A stretch of 64,000 nt of DNA. Origin: Erythrobacter sp. (lineage in GTDB: Bacteria > Pseudomonadota > Alphaproteobacteria > Sphingomonadales > Sphingomonadaceae). The stretch covers positions 1 through 64,000 of the forward strand of contig JAHEAV010000005.1 of NCBI GenBank assembly GCA_024642565.1. Reading direction: 5' to 3'. Each line of letters starts with the position of its first letter. The stretch's first letter is position 1. Below the pieces are notes generated by a model. The model made no database searches and was not told the DNA's origin. It saw nothing but the letters and a program-made list of their open reading frames with translations. The position numbers and the translations under genes were made by a program. Below, in pieces: positions 51,582 through 54,236 of the stretch.

Positions 51582-51610
51582 CTTGACGCGCGAAGTTCCC
51601 TTCCTATCTT
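51582..51610 (+). promoter_or_regulatory. Candidate RpoH (sigma32) heat-shock promoter upstream of hsp20
   Basis: CTTG-N17-CCTATCTT, close to the alphaproteobacterial RpoH consensus CTTG-N17/18-CYTATNT. Confidence 0.65.
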
Positions 51611-51715
51611 ACAAGTAGCGTCGTGCGCCGCAACGGGCATGACGCATTCATTGCAAGGAACGTTTCAATTGCGGGCCTTGTGCTGTTCAAATTGCTCAAC
51701 AGAGGATTTGCCTAC

Positions 51716-52195
51716 ATGTCACGTTTTGATTTTACTCCTTACCGCCGCTCCACTGTCGGTTTTGACCGCTTGTTCGATTTACTCGAAAGTCAGGCGCGCA
51801 CCGCTGGCGGCGACAATTACCCGCCCTTCAACATTCTCAAGCAGGGCGAAGATAATTACCGCATCACCTTGGCCGTCGCCGGCTTCAAGCCTGCTGATCT
51901 CGATATTACGGCACAGCAAAATCTGCTGATCGTGCAAGGTAGAAAGCGCGACGAAAACGAAGCCGATGGGGAATTGCTGCATCTCGGCATTGCCAATCGC
52001 GGCTTCGAACGCCGCTTTGAGCTGGCCGATTTCGTTCGCGTGGAAAACGCGAAGTTGGAAGACGGCCTTCTGGCAATCGACCTGATCCGGGAAGTTCCCG
52101 AAGCAATGAAGCCTAAAAAGATCATGGTGAATGGCCAGGCCACGCTCGAAATCGTCAATAATGACAAAGGCTCAGGCAAAGCCAACGCAGCCTGA
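51716..52195 (+). CDS. Small heat-shock protein Hsp20 (IbpA-like)
   Basis: YRRSTVGFDRLFDLLESQ...NYPPFNILKQGEDNYRITLAVAGFKPADLDI, RGFERRFELADFVRVENAKLEDGLLAIDL; start moved to MSRFDF. Confidence 0.93.
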   Translation: MSRFDFTPYRRSTVGFDRLFDLLESQARTAGGDNYPPFNILKQGEDNYRITLAVAGFKPADLDITAQQNLLIVQGRKRDENEADGELLHLGIANRGFERRFELADFVRVENAKLEDGLLAIDLIREVPEAMKPKKIMVNGQATLEIVNNDKGSGKANAA

Positions 52196-52277: not shown

Positions 52278-52309
52278 AATAAAGGGGACGAACCATTACA
52301 GTTCGCCCC
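52278..52309 (-). terminator. Rho-independent terminator (minus strand) in the hsp20-pyrG gap
   Basis: Minus strand GGGGCGAAC-TGTAATG-GTTCGTCCCC-TTTATT. Confidence 0.7.
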
Positions 52310-52430
52310 CCACGACGCTGATGCGCCGCCTTGTCCGAGTGCCATCGTCCGGGTCGCAGAAGGCGATGACCCACGGTACAAGCCCAACAACAGTGAAGCC
52401 CCCTCCACATCAGCGGATTCGGTAAATAAC
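52278..52430 (-). ncRNA. Candidate structured ncRNA of unknown class, about 150 nt, ending in an intrinsic terminator
   Basis: Minus strand: CGCTGATG...CATCAGCG 8-bp closing stem (52408-52415/52316-52323) enclosing CTTGT/ACAAG, CCG/CGG and GGGTC/GACCC helices, followed by terminator GGGGCGAAC-loop-GTTCGTCCCC-TTTATT (52278-52309); 5' end approximate. Confidence 0.5.
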
Positions 52431-52601
52431 TACCGTTAACGCTCTATGGTGATACGCCATTCTTTTGCAAAGATAAAGTGCGGAAAAACAAGCTGAACCA
52501 AAGCTGGACACGAAAAGCTTTGCGCTCGAAAAACAGGATTGCCGAATTGCGATTGAAGCTGGCGGTTAGCGGCCGCCAGCGCAACACTGTTATCTAGTCA
52601 A

Positions 52602-54236
52602 TCACACGAGTCGGGATTGCCGGACTGCCGCAGCGATAAAACCATCAAACAAGGGGTGCGGATCGAATGGACGTGACTTGAGTTCGGGATGGAACTGCAC
52701 TCCGACAAACCAGGGGTGATCCGGCCGCTCGATGATCTCGGGTAACAGGCCATCGGGCGACATACCCGAAAACACCAAGCCGCCACGCTCAAGCGCATCA
52801 CGGTAGGCTACATTGACTTCGTAACGATGCCGATGCCGCTCCGAAATCTCCGTTGCGCCGTGGTAAATCGCGCTGACATGACTGTTACCGTTCAATTTTG
52901 CCGGATAGGCGCCAAGCCGCATGGTTCCGCCCATATCGCCGCCAGCTTCTCTTTGCTGCAGGCCTTCCTTGCTCATCCATTCGGTAATGATCCCGACAAC
53001 GGGTTCGTCAGTCTCACCAAATTCCGTCGATGAAGCTTTCGTATGACCTGCTGCACGTGCCCCTTCGATACATGCCATCTGCATGCCCAGGCATATGCCG
53101 AAAAAGGGTACATTGCGTTCACGGGCGAACCGAACGCTGGCAATTTTGCCTTCCGAACCACGTTCGCCAAAGCCGCCTGGCACCAGAATGGCATGCAGCG
53201 GCTCAAGCTGCGGCGTCAAATCACCGTCCGCTTGTTCGAAGACTTCGGCGTCAATCCAGCGGATATTGACCCTGACCCGGTTTGCCAGGCCTCCGTGAAT
53301 CAACGCTTCGTTGAGTGACTTATAAGCGTCCTGAAGTCCGACATACTTGCCCACGACCCCGATTGTAACTTCGCCTTCGGGATGGAAATAACGATCAGTA
53401 ACATCCTGCCACCGGCCAAGATCAGGAGCCGGAGCGTCCGTGATGCCAAAGGCACGCAACACCTGATCATCCAGACCTTCCTGGTGATATTGTAGCGGCA
53501 CGGAATAGATGGACGGGGCGTCGAGCGCAGGAATTACCGCTTCCGGGCGCACATTGCAGAACTGCGCAATCTTGCGCCGATCGCTTTCCGGCAGTGGATG
53601 TTCGCTGCGGCATAGCAGCACGTCAGGCTTGATACCCAAACTCGCCAATTCGCGCACCGAATGCTGGGTTGGTTTTGTTTTCAGCTCTCCGGCCGCAGCA
53701 ATATACGGAACCAGAGTAACGTGGACGCTGAGTGTCTGAAGCGGTTCCAATTCGTTCCGTAATTGCCGAATCGCTTCCATGAACGGCAGCGATTCAATGT
53801 CTCCAACCGTTCCGCCAATTTCGCACAATACGAAATCAAGATCATCGGTTTCGGCAAGCGCGAATTCTTTGATCGCGTCCGTCACATGGGGAATAACCTG
53901 CACCGTTGCCCCCAGGTAATCCCCACGCCGTTCGCGCGCGATAATCTGCTGGTAGATGCGGCCACTGGTTACATTGTCGGATTGCCGCGCAGAAACCCCT
54001 GTAAAGCGTTCATAATGGCCAAGGTCGAGATCCGTTTCCGCACCGTCATCCGTCACATAGACTTCGCCGTGCTGATACGGGCTCATTGTTCCCGGATCGA
54101 CGTTTAGGTAGGGGTCAAACTTCCGGATACGCACCTTGAAGCCGCGCGCCTGCAGCAATGCTGCGAGGCTTGCTGCCATGAGACCTTTGCCGAGCGAGGA
54201 GACCACGCCGCCGGTAATAAAAATGAACCGCGCCAT
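52602..54236 (-). CDS. pyrG: CTP synthase
   Basis: [77 protein letters not shown]; glutaminase [14 protein letters not shown]. Confidence 0.97.

Follow-up and report, generated by a model that had tools for sequence, protein, structure and literature searches.

A conserved structured RNA family in the pyrG-hsp20 interval of Erythrobacter and its relatives

The gap between hsp20 and pyrG in an Erythrobacter genome, located in a 64,000-nt stretch of DNA (hereafter the window), raises the question of whether it encodes an RNA and, if so, of what kind. The original prediction placed a structured non-coding RNA gene with a terminator on the minus strand at 52278-52430, and all the strings that it quoted were found at their positions. 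As it had claimed, the gap carries no convincing gene: the ORFs that overlap there are 33-60 aa long, their would-be wobble positions are identical in the loop described below, and the stems covary. The existence of an RNA gene was strongly supported by homology and covariation. Its core, about 103 nt long, and the two genes that border the gap are as follows:

52281..52386, minus strand: structured RNA core (P1-P4), matched by covariance model R1 with 81.9 bits (E 7e-11) and by model R2 with 73.7 bits; pair counts below refer to 91 homologues
52602..54236, minus strand: pyrG (CTP synthase; Pfam CTP_synth_N), the upstream conserved neighbour, syntenic in 91/91 loci
51716..52195, plus strand: hsp20 (Pfam HSP20), the convergent conserved neighbour, in 89/91 loci

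A DNA search returned matches in 12 of 61 genomes, the window's own included, with the relatives aligning to the 3' part of the query. All these matches sit between pyrG and hsp20, and their alignment revealed a common fold and a common CTTCTGCGACCCGG block. The first covariance model (R1) was made from these 12 sequences and the second (R2) from 91. Of the 401 genomes of the order searched with R1, 138 carry the RNA, always as a single copy; they come from 26 of 85 genera and all belong to the window's GTDB family. R2 repeated this tally (138 genomes, 26 genera). A class-wide draw of 289 genomes gave matches in three genomes only, all of the same GTDB family, and none outside it. An exact pattern scan of a species-level genome collection gave 54 matches, including Novosphingobium, Erythrobacter, Qipengyuania, Tsuneonella, Pelagerythrobacter, Allopontixanthobacter and relatives. 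In the genomes sampled, the RNA family is confined to part of its host's GTDB family, on the Erythrobacter-Novosphingobium side.

In all 91 loci examined, pyrG lies upstream of the RNA on the same strand, its end being 112-407 nt away in 90 of them, and a convergent hsp20 gene lies opposite the RNA in 89. As the genome-wide search was blind to pyrG, this synteny provides independent evidence. The neighbours hsp20 and grxC are as conserved as pyrG, and given this the linkage to pyrG may reflect plain vertical inheritance. Because hsp20 is convergent, the RNA has no same-strand downstream gene to control in cis. In some Novosphingobium-type genomes (L061, L075, L087 and L160) an extra gene is present between pyrG and the RNA, which is retained despite the changed upstream gene. 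The inserted gene ends 38-46 nt before the loop in these four genomes, the core starting shortly past its stop codon; in L061, the one scanned, it encodes a cNMP-binding protein of the Crp/Fnr type by Pfam. In genomes with the inserted gene, the RNA may be made as the 3' tail of that gene.

The conserved fold comprises, in order, an irregular stem P1, a stem P2 with an apical loop, a hairpin P3 that was missing from the structure originally proposed, and a terminator hairpin P4:

52374..52382, minus strand: 5' strand of P1, CTTGTACCG, an irregular stalk pairing with 52330-52337
52330..52337, minus strand: 3' strand of P1, CGGACAAG, pairing with the 5' strand of P1
52343..52368, minus strand: P2 hairpin, CATCGCC / GACGATG with its apical loop; 97.4% of cells paired, double-sided changes in 6/7 pairs
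52351..52357, minus strand: heptamer GCGACCC of the apical loop, a putative recognition element, identical in 91/91 homologues
52312..52329, minus strand: P3 hairpin, GCGGCGC-ATCA-GCGTCGT; 96.4% paired, double-sided changes in 5/6 pairs
52283..52311, minus strand: P4, the predicted intrinsic-terminator hairpin, followed by TTTATT; 98.9% paired

Among the 91 homologues (89 distinct), standard pairs occupy 95.0% of cells, compared with 41-52% when the structure is slid along the alignment. The covariation check suggested at the outset found 29 of the 32 pairs changed on both sides in these 91 homologues, which had been aligned to the model structure, a procedure that favours it; none of 500 shuffles reached any of the observed measures. 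Double-sided changes were already present at 13 pairs in the 12-sequence MAFFT alignment, which predates any model, and P3 was 97% paired on a separate, structure-free MAFFT alignment. The outer four pairs of P1 are 94% paired, with double-sided changes in all four. The single-sequence fold reached -64.1 kcal/mol versus -53.95 kcal/mol for dinucleotide shuffles (z = -2.54; 1 in 200 as good), and over the 91 homologues the mean folding z was -5.7 for the core and -3.1 for P1-P3 without the terminator hairpin. The existence of a conserved structured RNA family is, in our view, close to certain. Covariation in the aligned homologues shows P1 and P2 as an irregular stalk that displays the invariant GCGACCC loop; both the stems and the letters preceding the heptamer vary among the 91 homologues. 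Pairing of the loop with the variable 5' region into a pseudoknot was also considered; its mean rank against shuffles was 0.41 (0.51 for a reversed-loop control), too weak to claim.

This fold differs in part from the one first proposed. In 11 homologues, the 8-bp closing stem (CGCTGATG/CATCAGCG) is paired in 49% of cells, and pairing of the inner helix GGGTC/GACCC reaches 47% in relatives. Neither is conserved, and the large asymmetric bubble arises only from that closing stem. The helices CTTGT/ACAAG and CCG/CGG held up better, with 91% and 70% pairing in homologues. CATCG/CGATG, regarded as an alternative pairing that hinted at switching, is in fact part of the real P2 (85% paired); as it is the only one of the two competing helices to be conserved, switching is unsupported.

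The string TTGCAA-N17-ATAGAG, taken for a weak promoter, is present, but what homologues conserve is another pair of blocks about 7 nt further upstream:

52449..52477, minus strand: putative promoter TTTATC-N17-TATCAC, from which transcription would start near 52442

In 18 of 91 loci, against 0.08 expected, an TTTATCTTT block precedes the core by 75-116 nt, and in the window's relatives a second element follows this block at a fixed spacing of 17 nt. CTTGC-N17-TAACG-like pairs are found in other lineages; over the whole family, the excess of the two-block motif over shuffles is modest. The RNA thus probably has its own promoter. At the other end, at least 4 T within a 6-nt window are found just past P4 in 64 of 91 homologues, versus 11% of random places, the T-rich tract being slightly delayed. 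P4 and this tract are a predicted intrinsic terminator, in agreement with the one originally placed on the minus strand, and in the window the interval from pyrG to P4 showed no further terminator.

The RNA could not be assigned to any known family, as had been anticipated. None of the 4227 families of Rfam 15 matched the RNA at gathering score, in the window or in 12 homologous loci, and none did so convincingly below it, with E values of up to 10 considered in the window. The sole matches with E < 1 in the gap, to Xoo2 (RF02241) and suhB/mmgR (RF00519), lie on the opposite strand, on the hsp20 terminator, and far under their gathering scores; they are a chance likeness of the terminator hairpin. 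No description of the RNA was found in the literature covered on small RNAs of sphingomonads, Novosphingobium, Erythrobacter and Zymomonas, which included few subscription journals. It is a new family, absent from Rfam, of a known kind, namely a structured bacterial small RNA.

The suggestion that the locus resembled 6S RNA, a rod with a central bubble, was examined specifically. The RNA is similar to 6S RNA (RF00013) in length, in being intergenic and single-copy and in the rod-like shape of its single-sequence fold. However, the 6S model found nothing at this locus up to an E of 10, the helix that would close the bubble is the unconserved closing stem, and the genome carries its own 6S RNA at another locus, G000:C3:49411-49578 (L013:1501-1668; 37 bits, E 6e-6), between zapA-like and 5-FTHF cyclo-ligase-like genes (names read from translations), the usual 6S context. 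The pyrG-linked RNA has another conserved fold at another locus, without a conserved closing stem or central bubble. On structure and synteny, the reading of the RNA as a diverged 6S RNA or 6S paralogue is refuted. The genome's own 6S RNA scores below the Rfam cut-off of 46.4 bits despite its usual context, so 6S RNAs of this clade may escape Rfam.

CcsR/'cuckoo' and AbcR RNAs are alphaproteobacterial trans-acting sRNAs with exposed C-rich loops. They share with the RNA a small size, an intergenic position, a terminator at the end and a C-containing displayed loop, whereas the RNA has no sequence or Rfam match to them, is single-copy and has a unique fold, and GCGACCC is not of the anti-Shine-Dalgarno CCUCC type. 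With 3'-UTR-derived sRNAs, a functional class, it shares its constant position after a protein-coding gene (pyrG) and its terminal intrinsic terminator, but in many genomes the RNA is preceded by its own promoter-like blocks, and the gene ahead of it may differ.

What does the RNA do? We propose a new small regulatory RNA family with its own promoter, a terminator at P4 and a loop that would base-pair in trans, a statement to which, taken as a whole, we give a probability of about 0.5. A transcript of about 160 nt would start near 52442 from a sigma-70-type promoter and end at P4; the P1/P2 stalk presents the invariant GCGACCC loop, with hairpins P3 and P4 after it, and the displayed loop would serve as a seed for pairing with other RNAs. 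An unvarying displayed loop amid varying stems is the pattern expected of a recognition element. That the RNA is an independent sRNA and not a tail of pyrG is probable; base-pairing in trans as its mode of action is the leading guess, with odds that come close to even.

An element of the pyrG mRNA 3' end, either a structured terminator region with a message-stabilising role or a processed 3'-UTR-derived RNA, would need no promoter of its own. It would account for the invariable position after pyrG and its distance, for the single terminator seen in the window and for the four genomes in which the core begins just past the inserted gene's stop codon with little promoter room outside that gene. 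The promoter-like blocks conserved in the window's relatives and the retention of the RNA where pyrG is no longer adjacent argue against it, as does an invariant loop that would exceed the needs of a terminator or stability element; the linkage itself loses weight if, as the equal conservation of hsp20 and grxC suggests, it reflects vertical inheritance. We consider this reading unlikely. A short protein-coding gene is highly improbable: although ORFs of 45 and 60 aa cover the RNA, the double-sided changes in nearly all pairs, the length changes between conserved parts that are not multiples of three and the lack of wobble-position variation in the loop all speak against translation.

Searches for targets of the loop bear on the mode of action. 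The complement of the loop occurs at chance level in four genomes, with no enrichment. GGGTCGC was found 2-12 nt before ATG at about 130 places in two genomes of the same genus; five are plausible starts and none is common to both. A loop that is constant in 91 genomes without enriched or conserved complementary sites would also fit an RNA that binds a protein, as a scaffold, a sponge or an enzyme inhibitor, with GCGACCC as the protein's recognition site. The RNA is not 6S and has no known partner, and to our knowledge GCGACCC is not a known CsrA-type (GGA) motif, all of which counts against a protein-binding role; we regard it as rather improbable. A further, doubtful proposal makes the RNA a clade-wide core regulator whose invariant loop contacts a single partner that is universally conserved, either a stable RNA or a protein, and not a set of drifting mRNA seeds; such a partner would account for a loop that stays constant while mRNA sites are not enriched.

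One candidate target, the 5' leader of a DEAD-box helicase gene, contains a 10-nt match to the RNA and was rejected. The leader's GGGTCG is present also in genomes without the RNA, so that the control failed, and several RNA-bearing genomes read GGGTCGT or GGGCGGT at the site in a related helicase leader. The exact GGGTCGC is associated with the RNA in helicase leaders (14/16 versus 3/11, Fisher p = 0.003), an association confounded by ancestry. The most likely source of the match is the hairpin of the leader itself.

With its strong covariation and its invariant loop, the RNA is a new family, retained apparently by vertical descent in Novosphingobium, Erythrobacter, Qipengyuania, Tsuneonella and relatives, and the covariance model makes it easy to annotate. 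The genetic tools of Novosphingobium make transcript mapping and deletion directly possible. If the loop does have a single universal partner, the RNA would point to a new clade-wide regulatory mechanism.

Other RNA features were observed on the way. A tRNA-Pro(TGG) gene (L185:1457-1533) carries GGGTCGCAG, which is complementary to nine letters of the loop region of the RNA; the string is also found in the same-genus copy L215, and the complementarity is probably a coincidence. Rfam showed no match at gathering level in the leader of the window's hsp20 (about 51600-51715), and hsp20 leaders in homologous loci (L003:809-905, L008:871-963, L030:2259-2358, L136:3211-3279) resemble ROSE thermometers, below the gathering score. 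Finally, DEAD-box helicase genes of sphingomonads are preceded by a 5' leader that is conserved and apparently structured (L224-L268, the last 200-330 nt ahead of start codons; for example L224:2104-2303 on the minus strand), and which in the window's own genome lies in G000:C37, just upstream of 31532 (minus strand). Located 75-130 nt ahead of the start codon, it comprises invariant, complementary AGCGTGA and TCACGC blocks and, after them, a hairpin with GGGTCG. The leader gave no Rfam match, is present in two helicase paralogue groups, whether or not the genome has the pyrG-linked RNA, and is possibly a separate new cis-regulatory RNA.
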